From positions 1 to 47,530 of IMG/VR virus record IMGVR_UViG_3300001750_000009: a stretch of 47,530 nucleotides of DNA; one strand, 5' to 3'. Every line of letters begins with the position of its first letter. The stretch's first letter is position 1. The position numbers were made by a program, and so were the translations under genes. This document shows positions 2,913 to 38,031 of the stretch, piece by piece. The stretch comes from a virus. The notes under the pieces are model-generated. The model made no database searches. It saw nothing but the letters and a program-made list of their open reading frames with translations, and was not told the origin of the DNA.

Positions 2913-4847
2913 CTAAGACCAAACTTTTATACTTGAAAACTGTCCATTTGAACTCCAACATCCACAAAATAAATACCCATCATGATAAATTATATTAGAG
3001 ATAGCCTCAAGGGCCGCATTTGTTATATAATTTATTTCTACAGGGATAAAAGGATTAATTGTATCTACAACAATTGCTGCTTGACTCGTAGCACTATACC
3101 CCATAAAGACATACCTCCCGCCCCAAATATCGAGACCTTTAGCATATGTCCCGGAATGCATTACCGTATTACTTATCAATACAGGATCAAGTGGGTCTGA
3201 AATATCTATAAGCGTTAAATCATTATACAAGGATATCAAATAGGCTATCGAACCGCTAACTTTTAATGAACGTGAATTCATAACTACGCCATTTGTGATA
3301 TATCCTTTTGCAGCAAAAGAAAGCGGATCGGAGATATCAATAATAGCAAAACAATCGGTTCCTGTATATGGGGTTACCGCGACATATAAATAGTTCTCCT
3401 GAATGCTAAAACCTATCACTCCTTTTATGGCTGGAGCTGTCACGCTATAAAAAGAAGCTACTATACTTGGAGATAATGGATTTGAGATATCAATCGTATT
3501 AATATAAAAATCAGAATACATTCCAGTAAATAAATAATCACCATGAACTATTATTTGGTTAGAACCACTATCAAATTTTGAATCTATTAGCGTTGCTGCT
3601 ATAAAAGGCGTATCGGGAGTTGAAATATCAATTATGATTAATTGATAATTTACGCCATCAGAACCTATTGTATATGCATAGTTTTCAGCGACGGCCACCG
3701 TTTGCATATATTGATATGGAGATAACGATAATGTAGCAATCTTTACAGGAAAGTTTGGATCAGAAATATCCACTACCGAAAAGGAGTTTTCCCCATAACT
3801 TACAACGAATATGTATGGTTCAGATAAAGCCATCGCTCCATAGCCAATAAAATTAAAATTATCATCCTGGATTGATGTGAAGGAACCGTCTAATTCTGGC
3901 GGAGAAAGATATTTACAAGAAATAAGCTTACTATAAGCTGGCCTCCAAGTATTTCCCGAAGCCATACCATGTGTATGCGCAAGTCCGCTGCCAGCGGCCT
4001 TCGTTTCAATATCCATGGGCGTTCCGCCCCAGTCAGCATTTCGAACTGTGCCCCCGGTGGAAGCTACGTGCCACCTTACATCAATGCCATGCTTATGACT
4101 TGGAAATTCTGACAATGTTACAGCATGGCCATTAACGCTTATTCCTGAAAACGTCCAGCTTCCGCCTGTACTCCCGCCTTCACTTTGCGTTGATGTATTA
4201 AGTATTACCATATCATTGTAAGAGGAATCGAATACCCAATTTGTCGGGACAGTCTTTTGCTTGAAAAACATGGCTGTATTAATCGGAAGGTTTTCTTCAA
4301 GATAAGAATTAAAACCTTGCATTTCTCTTAAAGGCGACATGCGCGAGATGTTGTCGGTTCCGGTTTCAGCTTGTATTTGAGATGCTAAAGGCGCATAAGC
4401 CTCAAACATCTCTACACCCTTCAACGATGACAAGACGTGTTCATCGTTTACGCCAGCTTCGGCCTCGACAGTAGAGGCAATGATAAATGACGCATCTATA
4501 GCCGCTAAATTGGCTAAAAATTCATCAAGCGCACTCGAAGTCACAACCATGCGCAATGTATGGTCTTCATCTTTATCAATTACAAGTGCTGTTGTATTGT
4601 CATACCCGCGCCCGTTTATGTTTGGGGTGTTTAAGGTTATTCCGACCGTTACTATTCTGCCGATTATACCAACACATTTAATAACTTCAAAGTTACCGGC
4701 TTCATCGGTTAACAACAATAAAAAATGGTCATCACTATTTGAAAGCGTCAGGATAGGAGATGGGGCTCTATCAATTTGCAATTCTGTAGTTGACGCTGTA
4801 ATGCTTTTTGTCAGATTTGTTTTATAATTATTTCTTACTTTAAGCAT
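2913..4847 (-). CDS. tail fibre: collar-like module plus LVIVD beta-propeller
   Basis: 644 aa in three parts. Residues 1-~130 are an N-terminal attachment module shared with the fibre at 5167-6114 (TELQIDRAPSPILTLS matches STTLALTAAPSPAIVLT). Residues ~140-330 hold fibre repeats ending in MSPLRE and a tail-collar-like domain with conserved FFKQKTVP, GIDVRWH and HTHG, where the His pairs probably bind metal. Residues ~335-644 carry about six LVIVD-type blades, each with a VVDISDP, IIDISTP or LIDISDP core, closing with IKVWS. The paralogue stops before the propeller, so the propeller is an added head, probably for receptor binding. Encoded 3 nt from the nozzle-like gene. Confidence 0.8.
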   Translation of the reverse strand: MLKVRNNYKTNLTKSITASTTELQIDRAPSPILTLSNSDDHFLLLLTDEAGNFEVIKCVGIIGRIVTVGITLNTPNINGRGYDNTTALVIDKDEDHTLRMVVTSSALDEFLANLAAIDASFIIASTVEAEAGVNDEHVLSSLKGVEMFEAYAPLASQIQAETGTDNISRMSPLREMQGFNSYLEENLPINTAMFFKQKTVPTNWVFDSSYNDMVILNTSTQSEGGSTGGSWTFSGISVNGHAVTLSEFPSHKHGIDVRWHVASTGGTVRNADWGGTPMDIETKAAGSGLAHTHGMASGNTWRPAYSKLISCKYLSPPELDGSFTSIQDDNFNFIGYGAMALSEPYIFVVSYGENSFSVVDISDPNFPVKIATLSLSPYQYMQTVAVAENYAYTIGSDGVNYQLIIIDISTPDTPFIAATLIDSKFDSGSNQIIVHGDYLFTGMYSDFYINTIDISNPLSPSIVASFYSVTAPAIKGVIGFSIQENYLYVAVTPYTGTDCFAIIDISDPLSFAAKGYITNGVVMNSRSLKVSGSIAYLISLYNDLTLIDISDPLDPVLISNTVMHSGTYAKGLDIWGGRYVFMGYSATSQAAIVVDTINPFIPVEINYITNAALEAISNIIYHDGYLFCGCWSSNGQFSSIKVWS

Positions 4848-10720: not shown

Positions 10721-11583
10721 TATGCGTATCCTCCCGCAAGCTTTTTTATGTCATCAATATATTGTTTTTTGGTCATAATACCTTGTCTAACAAATTGGCT
10801 CATAATATTTTTTTGCCCTGCTGTTAAATCAGCTTCAGTAAAAGAAATATTATTATTGTTGCCACGGGTAGCGCCTTCCACTCGGTTAACTATTTCCGTT
10901 GTACTGTTTTTTTTCTGGAATTTTTCTGGGAAACCATCTTTAACTTTTCTTTCTACAAGAGCAAGCAACCTTGTATATGGAAGCCCTTCATTTTGATCAC
11001 CAATAGCGTCTGCGTAGCTTTGCATTTCTTTATTAGTTCTATACCAATCGTTTTTTGCAACCCATTCCGTAAACTCAGGGTCTTCTCCCTGTGGTTGTGC
11101 GGCTGTTTCCGTTGCCTTTTCAGGTTGGCTTATAGATTCTTGAACTAAATCAATCTTGGCATCTATTTTTTCTACAAGGTCAACGTCTCCGTCTTGAATG
11201 GCTTCGTTTTTTTCTAATTTCAGGCTGGCTAAATCTTTCTTCAGAGTTGTGATTTCAGCCTTATATACTCTTTCATTATGCTGTTTCAACTCTTCAATAC
11301 TATTTGTCATTGCTGTTAATTGACGTTTTTGATCTTTGATTGATTTTCGCATATTTGTTTGGATATCGCCGCCTCTGCGGATATATGTAGCAGCATCTAC
11401 AAACTCATTATTGCTTTCCTCGTCAAAGTTTTCTTTGGGTCTCCATCCCATTTCTTGAGCTAACTCTTCTACGCTGGCACTTTTTATTTCTTCGGGAGCC
11501 TTTTCCTTTAAATCTGTATCGACATGGTCTTCATCGTTTTCCTTTGTTTCTGTTAAAATCTCATCTATTGTTTCATCATGCAT
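10720..11583 (-). CDS. scaffold-like protein
   Basis: 287 aa, acidic N-terminus (EILTETKENDEDHVDTD). A long coiled coil spans about residues 75-145 (DQKRQLTAMTNSIEELKQHN through KDLASLKLEKNEAIQDG), and the C-terminal helical region (DLTAGQKNIMSQFVRQGIMTKKQY) resembles the capsid-binding ends of scaffolds. Position between portal and capsid is the scaffold position. Its sequence is typical of a charged helical scaffold, with no protease domain. Confidence 0.7.
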   Translation of the reverse strand: MHDETIDEILTETKENDEDHVDTDLKEKAPEEIKSASVEELAQEMGWRPKENFDEESNNEFVDAATYIRRGGDIQTNMRKSIKDQKRQLTAMTNSIEELKQHNERVYKAEITTLKKDLASLKLEKNEAIQDGDVDLVEKIDAKIDLVQESISQPEKATETAAQPQGEDPEFTEWVAKNDWYRTNKEMQSYADAIGDQNEGLPYTRLLALVERKVKDGFPEKFQKKNSTTEIVNRVEGATRGNNNNISFTEADLTAGQKNIMSQFVRQGIMTKKQYIDDIKKLAGGYA

Positions 11584-11607: not shown

Positions 11608-11922
11608 TTATTTGTCTAAAACTGCTAAAATATCTTGATCATTTAATAGCGTATATTTTTTTTGGTCGATACCATCTATTTCAATTCCGGCATATTTGGC
11701 GAAAGAAACATGGTCTCCTGCCGCCGCCCAAGCTTCTCCATTGGCAAATTCAACCCAAGACGAAAGCCCAACTGCAATTAATGTTCCAGTCGTTGCAGCT
11801 CGCTGTTCATCATCCCTGCTTTGTGGCGCAAGATAAATGCCTCCTGTGGTTTTTTCTTTAACTATATCCGGTAAAACTAAAACATGATGGCCTGTAGGAT
11901 CAATCCCTGACTTATTCTGCAT
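11608..11922 (-). CDS. GroES-like co-chaperonin
   Basis: 104 aa, full-length for GroES (about 95 aa). HHVLVLPDIVKEKTTGGIYLAP contains the GroES mobile loop (KEKTTGGIYL, about residues 22-31), which in GroES contacts GroEL. GTLIAVGLSS, GDHVSFAKYAGIEIDGID and LLNDQDILAVLD match the beta-barrel core. Like T4 gp31 and other phage co-chaperonins it probably works with host GroEL to fold the capsid protein, and it lies in the head operon between portal and scaffold. The 11-nt overlap with the next gene upstream suggests coupling. Confidence 0.85.
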   Translation of the reverse strand: MQNKSGIDPTGHHVLVLPDIVKEKTTGGIYLAPQSRDDEQRAATTGTLIAVGLSSWVEFANGEAWAAAGDHVSFAKYAGIEIDGIDQKKYTLLNDQDILAVLDK

Positions 11923-23629: not shown

Positions 23630-25966
23630 TCACTCAATATTGGCTCCAAAATCGAAAGAAGTGTTTTCACTATAAGTTTTTCCTTCATCAAAAAAAACTT
23701 TAACGTGTTTCGAAAACGAACTTTTCATTTCGTATATTTTGGGCAAATCAAGAAAATCTTTCACATCTCCATCTTGTCTTTTTTGTTTTCTTACAGGGCT
23801 ACCACCTGGCCAAACTTGCCATGTTTGTCTCCAGAAACTTCTATTTGAAACAATATACCTTTCCTTATTCTTATTAGAAAATTCCAGAAATTCATTATAA
23901 ATTTCATATTTCCAGATTTCTTCCGGCCATGCAACATTCTGATCAACTCCGCATCGAGTTTCAATCGGGGCACCTGTAAACTTGTCCGATAATAAAAATT
24001 CTCGTTCAAGGACAAATTGCCAGAAAGCAAAAACTACAGGCAAAGATGTCTCTATTTGTTCAGAGAGCGCTTGCGTGAAAGGAGCTTTTCTTAAATTTAC
24101 AGCAGAATAATCATACCGCAATAAATCATACATCATTGCTGCTGGGCCACCATTCTCCATTTCGTCATCTATGCCATTAAAGTAATCTGTATTAAGTTTT
24201 TTATCTTCGTTAACGGCTAAGACTAAATATCTTCGCTCATCACTGGATGCCGGAACAATCCATTCTTCGTTGCTTGCAATAATAACATTCATATAATTAC
24301 GCATAGTTATCGAGTCGATTCCTTTCGGTTCAAATAGCGTTACAGGATCGGTAATCATATTTTGCAATTTACCTTTATTTTTTTTGTCACCCCCGAACGT
24401 GGCTTCGTCAAGAAAAACTAAAATAGCTTTAGACATATGCATATTAAATTTTCCTGTAAACCCGGCAGCATCAGCTAAGGGAAGGTATCCCTCACCAAAC
24501 ATTTTCCCCATGTAATCAGCCCAAAAACCCTTTCCTATACCTTTGCCTCCCTGTAAGACTAAGGCTACCCCTGGCCGCTTCCCACCAGGGTCTTGCACTG
24601 CGCGAGCTATCCAGGCGATCACATATTTATATATCTCATCATCTCCGTTACAAATAATGTTTTTTGTATGCCATCGTATTTTTGACCAATCACCTTTTTT
24701 TGGCTCCAATAACCCCCTAAACATATTATATACCCCAGGGGTATCCTTCTTTAATGATGGGTCAAAAGTCACTTCGTTATAGGTGCGCCTACCCTCCCAA
24801 TCTAACCATAACTTCCCGAGCGGAGCTGGCTTCAGGTCCTCATCTTTAAAAACAAAAACACGCTTGTTTCTAAAAAATAATTCAAAATCATAAGCCTTTA
24901 GGAACGATAGAAAATGTTTATGCCCGTCAAACCATTCTTTCAAGACGCGGAATGTCCCAGATAGCAGAGCCGCGCCAAAAACTTTATTCAGCCCCTCCAA
25001 TTCTTTTAATGTTTCAGGCGGATAAATATCATTATTCTCCGGTTGTTCTGTCTGTGGTGGCACCGACCAAATAAGCTCTTTTACAGGTATAGCCTGATCA
25101 AATCGTTCTTTAATTGAGCCGCCATTCATCAAAAGATCATTAAAATCCAGTTTAATGGGTTCATCAGAGAAACATTCATTGCAAGGTGTGACAAAAAAAG
25201 TTTCAATATCCACTTTGGAGGCCAGGGCAATCGCAGCTTTTTGGCCTCCAAAACTTGTATCAGAGTCCACTATTATATAAAGTTTTTTTATCCCACTCGG
25301 AAGCGAAACCCCCTGCATTCCAGCCGTGGATAGACAGGCACAGCCATTCATATCCATAGATTGCATCGCGGACAAGGTCGTTTCTATTCCCTCTCCTACA
25401 ATAAAGGTTTCAACAGACTGCTTCCTATAAAAAAAAACGCCTCGGCCTCGGCAAAAATTCTCACCATTATTGTTTTTGCCGAACATCTTGCCCTTACCTG
25501 ACTTGATGAATGTTTCGCCATCAAAAGTCATTCGTTGAACCGCCAAAACCTTGTCGTCACCAGGCTTAGTCATGGCAAACACAAGATTATCCTCTTTTTT
25601 ATATCGGTTTACACGAATAGCAGGGGAATCATATCCTATGTAAATACCCCTTGTTTTTAATACTTTCCTTACTGTTTCAGGGTCATTTTTAGCTTTCGTC
25701 CATATAAAATTCACAGGCGCAGGGGATATCTTTTTTGTTTGTTCAAAATTAGGTAGCAAACCCATCGTCCGTAACTGATCTTTTACAGTTTTCCATGAGC
25801 AACCGCTATGGCAATGAACTATGACATCCGGTTTTCCATTTTTGTCTATAGTATCTTTAACTGATAAGCTGGCGGTTTTATCTGGATGAGCAGGGCATTT
25901 AACGAGATAACCATCTCCAGAACGGGATCCGTCTAACGCAGCAGAAATTGACGCGGCTACACTCAT
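23630..25966 (-). CDS. primase-helicase (CHC2 zinc, TOPRIM, D5-like)
   Basis: 778 aa. Zinc part: CPAHPDKTASL (C24, H27) with HCHSGC (H51-C56). TOPRIM: FIVGEGIETTLSA (Glu192/Glu195) and IIVDSDT (Asp234/Asp236). SF3-like ATPase: Walker A QGGKGIGKG (472-480), Walker B LVFLDEATF (516-524), sensor IIASNEEW (562-569) and Arg finger region DERRY (576-580). This is the DUF5906/D5 layout of P4-like primase-helicases and would prime and unwind DNA at replication forks. The N-terminal half looks like a bacterial primase, so the protein is a fusion. It overlaps the helicase gene by 4 nt. Confidence 0.85.
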   Translation of the reverse strand: MSVAASISAALDGSRSGDGYLVKCPAHPDKTASLSVKDTIDKNGKPDVIVHCHSGCSWKTVKDQLRTMGLLPNFEQTKKISPAPVNFIWTKAKNDPETVRKVLKTRGIYIGYDSPAIRVNRYKKEDNLVFAMTKPGDDKVLAVQRMTFDGETFIKSGKGKMFGKNNNGENFCRGRGVFFYRKQSVETFIVGEGIETTLSAMQSMDMNGCACLSTAGMQGVSLPSGIKKLYIIVDSDTSFGGQKAAIALASKVDIETFFVTPCNECFSDEPIKLDFNDLLMNGGSIKERFDQAIPVKELIWSVPPQTEQPENNDIYPPETLKELEGLNKVFGAALLSGTFRVLKEWFDGHKHFLSFLKAYDFELFFRNKRVFVFKDEDLKPAPLGKLWLDWEGRRTYNEVTFDPSLKKDTPGVYNMFRGLLEPKKGDWSKIRWHTKNIICNGDDEIYKYVIAWIARAVQDPGGKRPGVALVLQGGKGIGKGFWADYMGKMFGEGYLPLADAAGFTGKFNMHMSKAILVFLDEATFGGDKKNKGKLQNMITDPVTLFEPKGIDSITMRNYMNVIIASNEEWIVPASSDERRYLVLAVNEDKKLNTDYFNGIDDEMENGGPAAMMYDLLRYDYSAVNLRKAPFTQALSEQIETSLPVVFAFWQFVLEREFLLSDKFTGAPIETRCGVDQNVAWPEEIWKYEIYNEFLEFSNKNKERYIVSNRSFWRQTWQVWPGGSPVRKQKRQDGDVKDFLDLPKIYEMKSSFSKHVKVFFDEGKTYSENTSFDFGANIE

Positions 25967-27180
25967 ATCAAGACATCCCCTAAATATGTTTGCCTATTAT
26001 TCGATTTTACGTTTTTAATTGCCCGATTCAATCCTTTTTTGTTCCCAATCACGGTAAGCCGCTCTTTAAATCGGCTTAGGGCAACATATAGTAAACTATT
26101 ACTCAACATAAAATAGTGGCTGCTGTGCATAAGGATAACCCCATTTGCGTATTCGCTGCCTTGGCTTGAATGGATAGTAAGGCAATAAGCCAGGCGTAGG
26201 TTTTTGATGTCAGCACGGTCAGAAAGCATAACCTCCTGCCCATCAAAATTGATAACTATCCCATCATCCGATATTTTGATTATCCTCCCAACATAACCAT
26301 TAAAGATGTCCAGTTTATAATTATTTTTCTTATTAATCACTTTATCGCCAACCCGCAGGGTAAGAAAAGCAGACGCTACATACTCTCTTCTCCCCATGCC
26401 AGCGGGATTTAATTTTAATTGCATGAACTTATTTATATTCTCTACACCGCATACGCCTGAATGTTGTGGTGATAAAACTTGATAATCCATCCCGATATCA
26501 GCCCATTGGCGGCAAGTATCTAAAACAATATCAGGTATAAGTTCTTTATCTTCTATGCCTTTGAAAAATAAATCATCATACCTGGTTCCACCTAATGTTT
26601 TTTGACCATATCTTCCGAATAAAATTTGTTTTCTTTTTTTTACCCGGTCGCAAGCATCCGCGATTAAACTGCCTTCTGCTTGTCTAAAATTGACAATGAG
26701 CTTGTTAATAATAGATTTGTTGTCTGTATCGCAAAGATCACGAAATGGGCACCCAGGCGGCACCGGGGGGAGTTGATCTGCATCCCCAACAAGAACTAAT
26801 TTTGCATTTTCTGAAACACCATTGATAATGCGTGCAAGAAGTTCGCTGCCCACCATAGAAGCTTCATCGCAAATCACTATATCCGCATCAAGCCTATTGT
26901 TTTCGTCATGGTGCCATACTCCTGGCCCCTGACATCCTAATAGCCGATGAATAGTCATCGGCTGGTTTATTAGACAAATTCCGTTCAAAGCCTCTTCCAT
27001 GACCTTGGCCGCCTTGCCCGTGGGAGCCGTAAGATATATTTTTTTATTTCCAAATAAATGTATTAATTCTTTCAGGATGGTTGTTTTTCCTCTTCCTGGC
27101 CCCCCCGTAAGCACAATAATTTTTTTATCACTACTATATATATTGTTGATAGCTGTCGTTTGATGCTTGTCAAATTTCAT
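25963..27180 (-). CDS. RecD2-like helicase, motor half
   Basis: 405 aa. SF1B motifs: Walker A LTGGPGRGKTT (25-35), where the Arg replaces the usual Thr/Ser; motif II VICDEASMV, motif III GDADQLPPVPPG, motif V AYCLTIHSSQGSEY and motif VI YVALSRFKERLTV. It lacks the N-terminal OB/HhH region, which is encoded by the gene upstream with a 4-nt ATGA overlap and a ribosome site (AAAGGAG) inside that gene's end. The split looks natural, not a frameshift. Probably unwinds DNA with the other half as a complex. Confidence 0.8.
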   Translation of the reverse strand: MKFDKHQTTAINNIYSSDKKIIVLTGGPGRGKTTILKELIHLFGNKKIYLTAPTGKAAKVMEEALNGICLINQPMTIHRLLGCQGPGVWHHDENNRLDADIVICDEASMVGSELLARIINGVSENAKLVLVGDADQLPPVPPGCPFRDLCDTDNKSIINKLIVNFRQAEGSLIADACDRVKKRKQILFGRYGQKTLGGTRYDDLFFKGIEDKELIPDIVLDTCRQWADIGMDYQVLSPQHSGVCGVENINKFMQLKLNPAGMGRREYVASAFLTLRVGDKVINKKNNYKLDIFNGYVGRIIKISDDGIVINFDGQEVMLSDRADIKNLRLAYCLTIHSSQGSEYANGVILMHSSHYFMLSNSLLYVALSRFKERLTVIGNKKGLNRAIKNVKSNNRQTYLGDVLI

Positions 27181-28085
27181 ATTTCTCCTTTAATCGCATT
27201 ATAAATAATTCTTTCACAATTAAATAGATTAGCAGAATATATTTTATTTTTATCTATAATGACCTTTTTTGCCGCCGCAAGCCGTTGGATTAATTTTTTT
27301 ACGGTACAATATTCAGGCGGTTTTATGGGCTGGTTTTGAACCATTGCGGAGTCAACCAGTTCATTAATAACCATTTTTACCAATGCGCCGCCATAAATCC
27401 ATATATTACCATTATTTTTTTCGCTGTCATCCAGACAAAACGAAATACATGCAAGAATTCTTTGTTCACTATCGCTTTTCAATCCGGCCTTTAAGCTAAT
27501 TCCATCAACAATTCTAAACCCAAAACCGTCAATATCATTGATGAGTTGATATGGGTCAGTCTGTATCTGCGTTATGGCCTCATTAATACCATATCTTTTT
27601 ATAATTTTATTGGTTTGATTTTCCGTTAAACCTATACCTAATAAATAAGTAGTTGCCTTGTAATTAGATACTAAGCCTTTAGCTTTCTCTTGTATCTCTA
27701 ACGATTTATCAACTGTGGTTACGCCCAAATAAGATGGACATTCTTGCGCCATCTTCCAGGCCATTTCTGGGCCTAATTCCTCAACCGCAGCGGTGGCTTT
27801 CACTTTTCCGATGTTTGGTAATAAACATAAGAGACTGATAACGCCACTTTTTGAATTCGTATCTGGAGCCACAGGCGCAACGGTTTTACATTTTAATTGT
27901 TTGCCGTATTTACCTTGCGTCCAAACACCTTCGCATTCAACACTAAAGCCAGAATCGCACATTGATGGTAATATACCCGTGCAAGAAATATCATCAGGGA
28001 TGGCCTGTACTGAGAATACGGCCCAATTATCTGCATTCCTATATGTAATCTTATTAATTTTTCCTTTTATTTTAATTATTTCCAT
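27177..28085 (-). CDS. RecD2-like helicase, N-terminal half
   Basis: 302 aa from MEIIKIKGKINKITYRNADNW, with GGAGATACTT before the ATG. The start is an OB-fold (WAVFSVQAIPDDISCTG, CEGVWTQGKYGKQLKCK); LPNIGKVKATAAVEELG and DPYQLINDIDGFGFRIVDGISLKAG are the helix-hairpin-helix repeats of RecD2 N-terminal parts. No ATPase motif is present. Partner of the motor half downstream. A longer in-frame start at 28187 overlaps the MBL gene and lacks a ribosome site. Confidence 0.75.
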   Translation of the reverse strand: MEIIKIKGKINKITYRNADNWAVFSVQAIPDDISCTGILPSMCDSGFSVECEGVWTQGKYGKQLKCKTVAPVAPDTNSKSGVISLLCLLPNIGKVKATAAVEELGPEMAWKMAQECPSYLGVTTVDKSLEIQEKAKGLVSNYKATTYLLGIGLTENQTNKIIKRYGINEAITQIQTDPYQLINDIDGFGFRIVDGISLKAGLKSDSEQRILACISFCLDDSEKNNGNIWIYGGALVKMVINELVDSAMVQNQPIKPPEYCTVKKLIQRLAAAKKVIIDKNKIYSANLFNCERIIYNAIKGEI

Positions 28086-28101
28086 AAGTATCTCCAATGA
28101 T

Positions 28102-28830
28102 CTATATAAAATAAAAAACTTTTGTTGGTGTTTCCTGCTTCGTACAAACCACATCAACACCCTGTCCGATAGCTTTCTTAATTTCATACTCGACTAAATC
28201 ATAGTTATTGTTTTCCGTAGATAAATGAAACGGCAATACAAGCCGCAGTTTATCATGCCAGACTTCTTTTAATATCCAGGCAGAATCAATATTGTCCATG
28301 TGACCTTCATTAGAAAAGATGCGTTCCATTAATTCTGATTCGTATCGTCCCTCAGTGAGCGTCTTTAAGTCATAATTACATTCAATAATTATGACATGGT
28401 TTGCTATGCCCTTAAGATTAAACAGAGCTTTTGCGGCAGCCTCAGTGATGCAGCCGGTATCAGGTATGTAAGTCAATTTGAAGTCTTTATATGTCAAATC
28501 AAAACCGTAGCAAGGGGAATCGTGGGACAATAAAAATGCTTTTACCTGAATGGGAGCTCTGCTTATTATTATTGATGCCGGGAATACGTCTTTATGAATA
28601 AATATATCCGGATGTTTTTTGCGTATCTGCGGAACAGATTGGATATGATCTTTATGATCATGTGAAATAAAAATAGTTTTTACATGATCAATTCGCTTAC
28701 CTATCCAATCGAGGCGTCTCTTTAATTCTTTGAACGAAAATCCGGCATCAAGTAAAAGGCCATATCCATCAAACTCAATATATGTGGCATTTCCACTCGA
28801 TCCTGATCCTAAATTGCAAAGTTTTATCAT
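28102..28830 (-). CDS. metallo-beta-lactamase-fold hydrolase, YycJ/VicX-like
   Basis: 242 aa. CNLGSGSSGNATYIEFDGYGLLLDAGFS is the typical start of YycJ-like proteins; SHDHKDHIQS (HxHxDH motif, ~58-66) binds metal, and IPDTGCI, VIIIECNYD and LPFHLS supply the rest of the site. Close homologues act as exonucleases or phosphodiesterases. Located between a possible SSB and the RecD2 genes, so a DNA-processing role is likely. Ribosome site GGGGGAAAG. Confidence 0.8.
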   Translation of the reverse strand: MIKLCNLGSGSSGNATYIEFDGYGLLLDAGFSFKELKRRLDWIGKRIDHVKTIFISHDHKDHIQSVPQIRKKHPDIFIHKDVFPASIIISRAPIQVKAFLLSHDSPCYGFDLTYKDFKLTYIPDTGCITEAAAKALFNLKGIANHVIIIECNYDLKTLTEGRYESELMERIFSNEGHMDNIDSAWILKEVWHDKLRLVLPFHLSTENNNYDLVEYEIKKAIGQGVDVVCTKQETPTKVFYFI

Positions 28831-33452: not shown

Positions 33453-34433
33453 ATGAATAAGTTACAAGACATTGGGTTTTATACGTTATCAGATTATAGG
33501 GCAAAGTATGCGTCAAGTAACTCGTGTTTATGGCGGTGTGAGTTATTAATTACGTCTGCTTGTAACTTTAACTGCCCATATTGCCGTGGTACTGATAGAA
33601 CGGCTGATATAACTTTTGAAGATGCAAAAAAAGTAGTTGATTTGTGGTGTCAACATGGTTTGCAAAATATAAGATTTTCAGGTGGGGAACCGACTTGCGT
33701 GGAATGGTTGCCTGATTTGGTAAAATATACATGGCAAAAAGGTGTTCATCGGATAGCTGTATCAACAAATGGATCCGCTTCAACAGATTATTATATAAAA
33801 TTACTAAAAAATGGGGTTAATGATTTTTCAATTTCTCTTGACGCTTGTTGCGCTGCGTTTAGTGATAAAATGACGGGTGCCCCTGGGTCGTGGCCTATTA
33901 TTGTAAAAAATATAAAAGCATTATCAAAATTAACGTATGTAACAACAGGGTGTGTTTTTGACGGAAAAAATATTGAGCAATCTGTCCAAACAGTAATTTT
34001 TGCTCATAATTTGGGCGTTTCTGATATTAGGATTTTAACTGCGGCTCAATATAATAAATCGTTAGAGTTTGTTGAACAAATTCCTAAAAATATTCTTTTA
34101 TATCATCCTATTCTAAAATACAGAGTAGAAAATTTTAAAAAAGGTCGCAACGTAAGGGGGCTAAACATAGGAGATAATTTTCAATGCCCTTTAGTGTTGG
34201 ACGATATAGCGATAAAGGGAGATTCTCATTACCCTTGCATAATTTATATGAGAGAGCTTGGGCCTCCAATTGGAAAAGTGTCTGCAAATATTAGAGGGGA
34301 GAGAGCCGAATGGTATAAAACCCATAACTGTTTTCGTGACGATATTTGTAGGGAAAACTGTTTAGATGTTTGTGTTGATTATAACAATAAATTTAGACAA
34401 ATAAATAACAGGCATAACTATCGCAACAGGTAG
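33453..34433 (+). CDS. radical SAM enzyme with SPASM-like Cys-rich tail
   Basis: 326 aa. ACNFNCPYC is the CxxxCxxC [4Fe-4S] site (C37, C41, C44); SGGEPT (76-81) is the SAM-binding GGE; VSTNGSA and FSISLDACC follow as in MoaA-like enzymes. C-terminal Cys at 245, 262, 293, 299, 303 and 307 could hold one or two extra clusters, like SPASM or twitch domains. Tail spacing C-x5-C-x3-C-x3-C differs from the standard SPASM. No QueE or other known phage radical SAM signature is visible, so the substrate is unknown; it may modify a peptide or a nucleic acid. Confidence 0.8.
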   Translation: MNKLQDIGFYTLSDYRAKYASSNSCLWRCELLITSACNFNCPYCRGTDRTADITFEDAKKVVDLWCQHGLQNIRFSGGEPTCVEWLPDLVKYTWQKGVHRIAVSTNGSASTDYYIKLLKNGVNDFSISLDACCAAFSDKMTGAPGSWPIIVKNIKALSKLTYVTTGCVFDGKNIEQSVQTVIFAHNLGVSDIRILTAAQYNKSLEFVEQIPKNILLYHPILKYRVENFKKGRNVRGLNIGDNFQCPLVLDDIAIKGDSHYPCIIYMRELGPPIGKVSANIRGERAEWYKTHNCFRDDICRENCLDVCVDYNNKFRQINNRHNYRNR

Positions 34434-34763: not shown

Positions 34764-35045
34764 ATGCAAGTTCTAATAAACAACATAGAGTATCGCCCCA
34801 AAACAAGTGCTGATGCGCTGCCAGATAATTGGCAAGCACTATTAGTAAAAAGAATCGTTGAAAGTAGAAATGGGCTTAGTGTATTAAGCGATTGTGAAAC
34901 TCCGAACTTCTGGATAAGAGCAACTGGAAAAGAATACGACACCAGTGAAGATCCATGTATAAATGATTTGCGCCGATTTTTTTTAGCGGCATTATGCGGT
35001 GATAATATAAATTTAGATAAAAAGCATAAAGGAGAGAAAATATGA
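34764..35045 (+). CDS. unknown 93-aa protein
   Basis: From MQVLINNIEYRPKTSADALP; AAGGAGATG before the ATG. A short N-terminal beta strand (LINNIEYRP) then helices (RRFFLAALCGDNINL). ATGA overlap with the next gene. No family recognised. Confidence 0.6.
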   Translation: MQVLINNIEYRPKTSADALPDNWQALLVKRIVESRNGLSVLSDCETPNFWIRATGKEYDTSEDPCINDLRRFFLAALCGDNINLDKKHKGEKI

Positions 35046-35398
35046 AAGAAAAACCCAAAGTAGGCCAAAAACTATATTCCTTAAATATAAACAACGCTGC
35101 AAGAAGTTGTAAGCAAAAGTTAACACCAGTTACTGTTACGAAAGTAGGAAGAAAATATTTTTCCTGCGATAACCGAAGGCAATATTATATAAAATCTTTG
35201 GGCGAGAACACAAAGTACTGCCAAGATTCACAACTATACGAAACCGAAAAAGAATGGGAAGATGAAAAGGAGGCAACGAAAATAGCTATTTTTATTTGGG
35301 ATTTTTTCCGATATAGTAACAGCAAGTTGAACCTTTCCCTGGAAGAGTTAAGGGCTGTTGAGCAAATAATTAAAAAAACAAAAGGAGATAAAACGTAA
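35042..35398 (+). CDS. conserved phage hypothetical protein, 118 aa
   Basis: VGQKLYSLNINNAARSCKQKLTPVTVTKVGRKYFSC is a pattern (LYSxNxxNAAR...LTPVxVxKVGRKYFxC) seen repeatedly in phage proteins. The second half is a helix with SLEELRAVEQIIKKTK. Function unknown. Confidence 0.65.
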   Translation: MKEKPKVGQKLYSLNINNAARSCKQKLTPVTVTKVGRKYFSCDNRRQYYIKSLGENTKYCQDSQLYETEKEWEDEKEATKIAIFIWDFFRYSNSKLNLSLEELRAVEQIIKKTKGDKT

Positions 35399-36175: not shown

Positions 36176-36528
36176 TGAAATATTTTATAGGCTGGTGCAG
36201 CAAATGCGGTGGGGATATGTTTTGGAGTTCAGACGAGGGGAAATGCATTTTCCACTCAGTAGGAGGCTGCCTCTGTGAATGCTTATACCCAAAACAATTC
36301 ATGGAATGGTGGGACGAACACTCTTGCCCATATAATATTAACACATTTTTTTCTGCATGGGAAAATAGCCAGCAACAGATTAAGGTCGCTTGCGAAAAAC
36401 TCGAGGAACTCATAAAGACAGGGAGTGAGCTTGTTTTTAGTAGAAATAAAAAATGGATGGTTTGTGACAAAAATTGGGAGGCCACCACCAGTAAAACTAT
36501 ATTTGGATTGTTGGAGAAGCTGGCATGA
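36175..36528 (+). CDS. Cys/Trp-rich small protein, 117 aa
   Basis: MKYFIGWCSKCGGDMFWSSDEGKCIFHSVGGCLCECLYP: CxxC, and CLCEC, likely a metal site. Starts at the previous stop (1-nt overlap). The C-terminal part is helical. Function unknown. Confidence 0.6.
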   Translation: MKYFIGWCSKCGGDMFWSSDEGKCIFHSVGGCLCECLYPKQFMEWWDEHSCPYNINTFFSAWENSQQQIKVACEKLEELIKTGSELVFSRNKKWMVCDKNWEATTSKTIFGLLEKLA

Positions 36529-36941
36529 GCAAAGGGGAAAGGAACATCTTGTTGTATCTTGCGATAATGGCGTTAGTCACAAAGCTGTTACGCAAAAACA
36601 ACCCGTCAAAAACTGTCAGAAGAATGCTTATTGTTGTTGATAAACGTTTTTTTGCAGCCAGGGAACTGTATCCTGAGTTGTTTTTGAATTCAAAAGACTG
36701 CAACCGGATTGAAAAAAAGATTATCGACTTAGAAAGAGAAACAAAGATTCATATTGTTTGTCTTATTTGTATCTGTCAGGCTGGTTTCTCTGATGCTCTT
36801 AACCTCTTACGCGGGAAGAGAAGTGACGCTATAGAAAAATGCATTATATCTCTCAACCGGCTTAGTGTTTATTTTGATCGAAAGATTAATTTGAATGCTG
36901 AATATGACAAGGCAATTAAATATATTGAGGGATGGGGATAG
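36525..36941 (+). CDS. unknown helical protein, 138 aa
   Basis: MSKGERNILLYLAIMALVTKLLRKN begins with a possible membrane-proximal helix, then IVVDKRFFAARELYP, IHIVCLICICQAGFSDALNLL (Cys-rich hydrophobic) and RLSVYFDRKINLN. Overlaps the previous gene by 4 nt. No family recognised. Confidence 0.55.
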   Translation: MSKGERNILLYLAIMALVTKLLRKNNPSKTVRRMLIVVDKRFFAARELYPELFLNSKDCNRIEKKIIDLERETKIHIVCLICICQAGFSDALNLLRGKRSDAIEKCIISLNRLSVYFDRKINLNAEYDKAIKYIEGWG

Positions 36942-36995
36942 TGAATATGAAAATATTTTATAAATCATTTATATTTTTGGGAGGGGAAATTAAAT

Positions 36996-37484
36996 ATGTT
37001 AGAATATGAAACCCAGCCGAATGCAGCATTGTTGCTGGCAGCAGAACAATTAGAATATGCAGTTTTTTTGATAGCGGATTGGGGTTCTTACGCTCCTTTA
37101 TATTACCAAGAAAAACATGATTTACAAGGAGATATTGAAAAAATCAAATCACACGCGAAGTTAATAAGAAACATGATACGGGAACCAGCAAAAAATAAAA
37201 AATTGATAAGGGGAGGGGATACAAGGGGACATCATAAAAAAATTATAGGAATAACAAAAATGAAAGCAATAATATTAACAGAATCGCAGCTAAAACAGCT
37301 TGAGGATTTCAACAAATTGACAATAGATGCCCATAACAAAGAAAGGACCGGAGTTATTTTAGCACAAATAATTCATTCTCACGGCTACATGGCATGTAAC
37401 TTCTATACCGAGAAAGAAACTGACCAACTCAATATTGTTTTAGGTAAGATCGAAACTGACCGGGAAAAAAAGAAGACTGTATAG
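36996..37484 (+). CDS. unknown protein, 162 aa, zero-frame part of fusion
   Basis: Starts MLEYETQPNAALLLAAEQLE after GGGAGGGG. Two likely units: a helical first ~85 residues, then MKAIILTESQLKQLEDFNKL (a start-like internal Met at residue 89). It ends KKKTV at TAG (37482-37484), directly after the A AAA AAG slippery heptamer (37466-37472). A -1 shift there leads into an open frame for 83 more codons. Function of the zero-frame part unknown. Confidence 0.6.
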   Translation: MLEYETQPNAALLLAAEQLEYAVFLIADWGSYAPLYYQEKHDLQGDIEKIKSHAKLIRNMIREPAKNKKLIRGGDTRGHHKKIIGITKMKAIILTESQLKQLEDFNKLTIDAHNKERTGVILAQIIHSHGYMACNFYTEKETDQLNIVLGKIETDREKKKTV

Positions 37485-37723
37485 ATGGAAGCTCACGGCT
37501 GTCTGCGGCAGCTACGCCAGAGCCTCCACCAACGCCTGGTGAGAAAGCCGTACTACCGCAAGTTATCAACGATCTGTTTGATCGAGATCAAATGGGTAGA
37601 GAAAAATACGGAACGACATTGATGACGCATAACGGGCGCAATAGCATGATGGATGCGTACCAGGAGGGGTTGGATTTTATTATGTATTTTCGTAAAAAAA
37701 TAATGGAAATGGATGAAAAATGA
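37460..37723 (+). CDS. C-terminal phage domain reached by -1 frameshift
   Basis: Open in the -1 frame from 37460 to the TGA at 37721-37723. No ATG, GTG or TTG precedes the domain core; the first ATG comes mid-domain at LFDRDQMGREKYGTTL. The core (KAVLPQVINDLFDRD, GREKYGTTLMTHNGR, MMDAYQEGLDFIMYFRKK) matches a small domain that recurs at the C-termini of phage proteins and which I associate, without certainty, with dNTP or MazG-like proteins. More GC-rich than its neighbours. Alternatives: an A8-to-A7 sequencing error in one continuous gene, or a non-ATG start such as the CTG at 37499. Confidence 0.6.
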   Translation, partial: PGKKEDCIDGSSRLSAAATPEPPPTPGEKAVLPQVINDLFDRDQMGREKYGTTLMTHNGRNSMMDAYQEGLDFIMYFRKKIMEMDEK

Positions 37724-38031
37724 AAATAATAATTGAAAGAAAATGCGATAATATCTTTGGCAAATATGGAATATGGGTATTTATTATTGTCATATTCATA
37801 ACTTATCTTGGTATGGCTTATTATAGTAAAACTATGGAAGATAAATTGGCGTGTGTTTGGACAATGATGAATTCTTTATGTTTTATCTATTTTTTTTCTA
37901 TAGATATATACCATTCAAAAACAATTTATTATCCAGAACCAAGAATTGACGAGCCACTTGGCCCGTCTTACGTCCAAAGAAAAACAATTTATTTACCGCA
38001 AAGAATTTTCAAAATTATAATGCATTTTTAA
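37720..38031 (+). CDS. membrane protein, 103 aa
   Basis: Starts inside the frameshift domain's stop (ATGA). Two transmembrane stretches: YGIWVFIIVIFITYLGMAYY (16-35) and LACVWTMMNSLCFIYFFSI (43-61). Basic end (VQRKTIYLPQRIF). Function unknown. Confidence 0.6.
   Translation: MKIIIERKCDNIFGKYGIWVFIIVIFITYLGMAYYSKTMEDKLACVWTMMNSLCFIYFFSIDIYHSKTIYYPEPRIDEPLGPSYVQRKTIYLPQRIFKIIMHF

Follow-up and report, generated by a model that had tools for sequence, protein, structure and literature searches.

A phage cassette in which two coding frames meet at an A-run, possibly a fused gene split by a one-base change

Introduction

In dnaX and the IS3-family transposases, which use bacterial -1 ribosomal frameshifting, an A_AAA_AAG heptamer lies in the zero phase where two open frames briefly overlap, together with an upstream Shine-Dalgarno (SD) sequence, a hairpin at 5-9 nt and conservation of the site. 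When stimulated, A AAA AAG ranks in the top three heptamers for shifting in E. coli, while the best heptamers without stimulators give around 0.3% shifting (PMC4066793). The spacer between heptamer and structure is usually 5-9 nt, with outliers up to 14 (PMC5009743). T7 gene 10A/10B and the tail assembly chaperones G/GT gain a C-terminal extension when ribosomes shift shortly before the first ORF ends. The classic phage frameshifts sit in tail chaperone genes. Annotated phage frameshifts number one per genome in a large training set (PMC10885494). A survey covering 1,106 genomes put most singleton frame transitions that lacked a conserved site down to indels or sequencing errors (PMC3711429).

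Here we describe a locus in the viral record IMGVR_UViG_3300001750_000009, of which the window, the whole stretch analysed, comprises 47,530 nucleotides. The locus shares with dnaX and the IS3-family transposases the heptamer, its phase and the short overlap of open frames, but not the upstream SD, the hairpin at 5-9 nt or the conserved site. As in T7 10A/10B and G/GT, the shift would come late in the first ORF and extend the C-terminus, although here the locus is an accessory cassette gene with an orphan N-terminal part, encoding no structural protein and belonging to no conserved pair. The singleton frameshifted genes and pseudogenes of the GeneTack class show the same frame change at a homopolymer and likewise have no conserved site, the difference being that for the window locus no sequence with an unbroken frame is known.

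Results

The features of the locus are collected in Table 1. At its 3′ end the upstream ORF (the N-part) reads GAA (37464), AAA (37467) and AAG (37470) in the zero frame, followed by AAG ACT GTA and a TAG stop at 37482-37484. In the -1 frame no stop interrupts the stretch from 37460, just past a TGA at 37457, to the TGA at 37721-37723, and past the heptamer this frame provides an extension of 83 codons (37472-37720). As the two open frames overlap nowhere else, any shift that fuses them must fall in this overlap. The layout in the original prediction, with the ORF ending just past an in-phase heptamer, the codons GAA AAA AAG at 37464-37472, an 83-codon extension in the -1 frame and a next gene beginning in the stop of the extension, agrees to the base with the letters, the ORF map and the position of ATG37720.

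Table 1. Features of the junction and its surroundings (window coordinates).
Feature	Position	Strand	Remarks
Variable cassette, slot between two conserved genes	36942..37710	+	flanks match L114 at ~73-84% nt
Upstream ORF (N-part)	36996..37484	+	162 aa, orphan; strong SD GGGAGGGG before ATG36996
Overlap of both open frames	37460..37484	+	sole place for a frame change joining them
A_AAA_AAG heptamer	37466..37472	+	zero phase, inside A7 run
Interrupted hairpin TGGA-GCTC-CGGCTGTC...GAGC-TCCA	37486..37528	+	-18.0 kcal/mol, 13 nt past heptamer; possible stimulator
CTG, possible unusual start	37499..37501	+	would give (M)SAAATPEPPP..., as in stand-alone relatives
Conserved module, phrog_22538/7609/11184-like	37502..37720	+	~70 residues; two-helix hairpin, no standard start before core
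Next gene	37720..38031	+	ATG37720 overlaps extension stop (ATGA); conserved in L114

The heptamer fits the X_XXY_YYZ pattern of -1 programmed frameshifting. In any phase it is common in this phage, with 62 copies where 35 were expected; in the zero phase it occurs ten times in the 13,636 codons of the phage's ORFs, so that the chance of finding one in a given overlap of seven codons (~24 nt) is ~0.5%. With a dicodon score trained on the phage's other ORFs, the extension scored 0.50, against a mean of -1.12 (sd 0.37) for wrong frames, showing it to be coding. Up to about 37440 the signal follows the zero frame, and past about 37456 it follows the -1 frame, which places the change within about 37440-37500.

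A second record, IMGVR_UViG_3300027822_000003 (62626 bases), holds the whole window, all 47,530 bases being 100% identical, A7 included. No further IMG/VR record contains the junction with a run of any length. The same A7 in a second contig makes an assembly slip private to one record less likely, although the two records may share reads. Nowhere else inside this sister contig is a coding frame without a start as clear as in the extension; one other candidate has no better competing frame, and it is only 45 codons long. With no other start-less coding frame of similar length in the contig, the assembly is not generally error-prone. The sister contig carries one 55-base stretch twice, near its start and at its other end, which hints that the genome is circular or terminally redundant.

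The extension contains a module matching phrog_22538 (E = 1e-13), phrog_7609 and phrog_11184, with E values from 1e-13 to 7e-10, and, in addition, the C-terminal end of phrog_139, a dNMP kinase family of phages. It has the same KYGT..NGR..DAYQE.LD..Y motif as the first three families and the same predicted two-helix fold, in its case a confident hairpin (pLDDT 93.5). All family-invariant residues are kept and there is no internal stop. Fold matches were to viral proteins only, mostly from phages; neither a search of Rfam nor one of the PDB, by sequence and by fold, gave a match. Searches of Pfam and NCBIfam with the module found nothing convincing. The module (KYGT..NGR..DAYQE.LD; loci L019-L098) is nevertheless very common in phages, with relatives at no fewer than 386 IMG/VR loci. 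In these relatives it stands alone or is joined to variable partners, including dATP/dGTP pyrophosphohydrolase and DUF6378; some of the partners belong to nucleotide metabolism.

Where the window module departs from the phrog_22538, phrog_7609 and phrog_11184 family is in having no in-frame standard start before its core. An upstream in-frame ATG, GTG or TTG is present in 72 of the 73 distinct module sequences, the window being the sole exception. More than 60 open codons precede the module in 34 of the 73, though in some of these the openness may be spurious, the frames being GC-rich. Not until ATG37592, midway along the first predicted helix, does the extension offer an ATG, GTG or TTG. This, with the phrog matches, confirms the earlier claim of a recognisable phage domain whose core lies ahead of any ATG. 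Two features under one match in Yvonnetastic and in a Plesiomonas phage were rejected as parallels, since they are neighbouring genes of the ordinary kind that have starts.

No homologue of the N-part was found in IMG/VR, in phages or in the related contigs, and scans of genome contigs gave no match. The best phage matches (E = 8, Pseudomonas phage Delta) were discarded, as they run antisense to annotated genes. In terminase-related phages both the N-part and the module are absent. Within the N-part ORF the coding signal drops around GGGGAGGGG (window 37200-37260), and there is an internal in-frame ATG37260 with AGGA upstream; the N-part may itself be two genes.

The gene at 36525-36941, just ahead of the cassette, has relatives at 80% in one related phage (L114) and 55% in another (L115). 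In L114 a single DNA methyltransferase-like gene (slot 3418-4011) replaces 36942-37710, and in L115 the slot (3416-3931) holds a single HD phosphohydrolase gene; neither is homologous to the N-part or to the module. With syntenic flanks and replaced contents, the N-part and module thus lie in a swapped cassette. The pattern is one gene per cassette, as seen in two related phages, and with one unrelated gene in the slot of each, a natural way to read the N-part and module is as one cassette gene that has been cut in two.

No SD-like stimulator about 10 nt 5′ of the heptamer was seen by eye in GGTAAGATCGAAACTGACCGGG. No structure beginning 4-10 nt past the heptamer, a range that takes in the usual spacing, stood out from dinucleotide shuffles. 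The candidate pseudoknot after 37472, a structure for which the original prediction had proposed a search, was rejected, since 19 of 60 shuffles reached its score. That prediction also saw no obvious stimulation, which holds, but the two hairpins it named are minor and it overlooked the longer one at 37486-37528. With a z of -1.7, the best value against the shuffles but not a significant one, this hairpin is only weakly better than chance. It is stabler than 99% of synonymous versions drawn with phage codon usage (P 0.01), but than just 75% of permutations of its own codons (P 0.25), so that the effect may stem from GC-rich codons.

Elsewhere in the window, another heptamer in phase close to the end of a gene, on the minus strand (10741-10747), was set aside as ordinary: its 147-codon -1 extension is simply the following gene, which has an SD and an ATG of its own. 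An exonuclease V/RecD-like helicase family is represented on the minus strand (25963-28187) by two overlapping genes of 336 and 405 aa with an ATGA overlap and an SD; a frameshift at the split (27180) was rejected, as the strong SD and ATG make these two real genes. The phage also encodes a GroES-like co-chaperonin (11608-11922, minus strand; phrog_3188, 1e-14) adjoining portal and head genes, a radical SAM protein (33453-34433, plus strand; phrog_1802) and a protein with a ProQ C-terminal-like domain (35042-35398, plus strand; PF24203, 6e-14).

Discussion

The explanation we favour, with a probability somewhat short of even (about 0.45), is that a one-base length change at the A-run split a single fused cassette gene; the confidence in this and in all the other readings is a matter of judgement and was not computed. 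We infer that the two halves once lay in one frame and that the change was an indel. The N-part and module would have arrived together as one cassette gene, and a one-base change in the length of the A-run would then have moved the module into the -1 frame relative to the N-part. The main product would be the 162-aa N-part, with the 242-aa fusion made in traces at most, via spontaneous slippage at A AAA AAG. Consistent with this, the window is alone among the 73 distinct family members in having no start, many family members have the module fused in frame to other N-terminal parts, exactly one gene fills the slot in each of the two related phages, and no stimulator at the heptamer is supported. 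The frame change also falls on a homopolymer, where indels arise. The earlier view of a change in A-run length as the main rival to frameshifting is right. Of the A8 undercall then proposed, the length change is favoured, while a one-off assembly slip has become less likely; the change is probably a real mutation or polymorphism. Since every invariant residue of the module is kept, the break would be recent or suppressed.

Against a split by an indel stand the second contig, in which all 47,530 bases, the A7 among them, are identical, and the lack of a comparable start-less frame elsewhere in the contig. On this reading a perfect A AAA AAG stands in phase at the break by coincidence, and the hairpin is stabler than most synonymous versions. 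The searches turned up neither a version with the frame unbroken nor a homologue of the N-part by which a fused ancestor could be shown.

Programmed -1 ribosomal frameshifting at A AAA AAG, perhaps with the hairpin at 37486-37528, would yield a minority fusion of N-part and module; we consider it unlikely, though it ranks second among the readings and is a live one. An in-phase heptamer exactly in the short overlap, an intact and coding module, the stability of the hairpin against synonymous recoding and the identical A7 in the second contig all speak for it. However, there is no upstream SD-like stimulator, the structure is not significant against shuffles, the 13-nt spacer exceeds the usual 5-9 nt and the motif by itself would give about 0.3% shifting. 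Nor is the arrangement conserved in any relative: none of the other 72 module sequences is without a start, the slot genes of L114 and L115 are not homologous, and no orthologues of the N-part were found. The locus is also an accessory cassette, unlike the classic phage cases. With no stimulator, no N-part homologue and no conserved site found, the case for programmed frameshifting is carried by the heptamer. In the comparison with homologues that had been proposed, the module is fused to other partners in relatives, and all 72 others use an ordinary start. The original prediction is right that two coding frames meet at the A-run, but in calling a -1 frameshift fusion likely it exceeds the evidence. 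That this is a phage accessory cassette gene in which a -1 shift, with a hairpin 13 nt downstream, makes a minority of an orphan protein carry the module is decidedly unlikely.

It seems quite improbable that the module is a gene of its own, whether ribosomes end at TAG 37482 and restart at CTG37499 or ATA37481, the A-run being coincidental, or start at ATG37485 if a base differs further on. Stand-alone relatives do begin 3-15 residues before the same AAxxPxP linker, which a start at CTG37499 would reproduce; the ATGA coupling to the following gene also fits, as do purines upstream that weakly resemble an SD (-3.3 to -4.0 kcal/mol). Most genes of this phage, however, have much stronger SDs, CTG37499 lies within the stable hairpin, an in-phase A-run would be expected by chance in only ~0.5% of cases, and CTG starts are very rare and weak, making up 0.024% of bacterial start codons with 0.86% of AUG output (PMC11497404). 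The module as an untranslated remnant of recombination at the slot, as mosaic replacement at a cassette site and the missing start codon might suggest, is very improbable given the retained invariant residues, the absence of internal stops, the coding bias and the ATGA overlap with the next gene.

Were frameshifting nevertheless true, the locus would be a case outside the phage tail and capsid genes, and would connect a phage module that is very common but has no name with regulated attachment. On the present evidence it illustrates how an A-run, a swapped cassette and an absent start codon can mimic programmed frameshifting.
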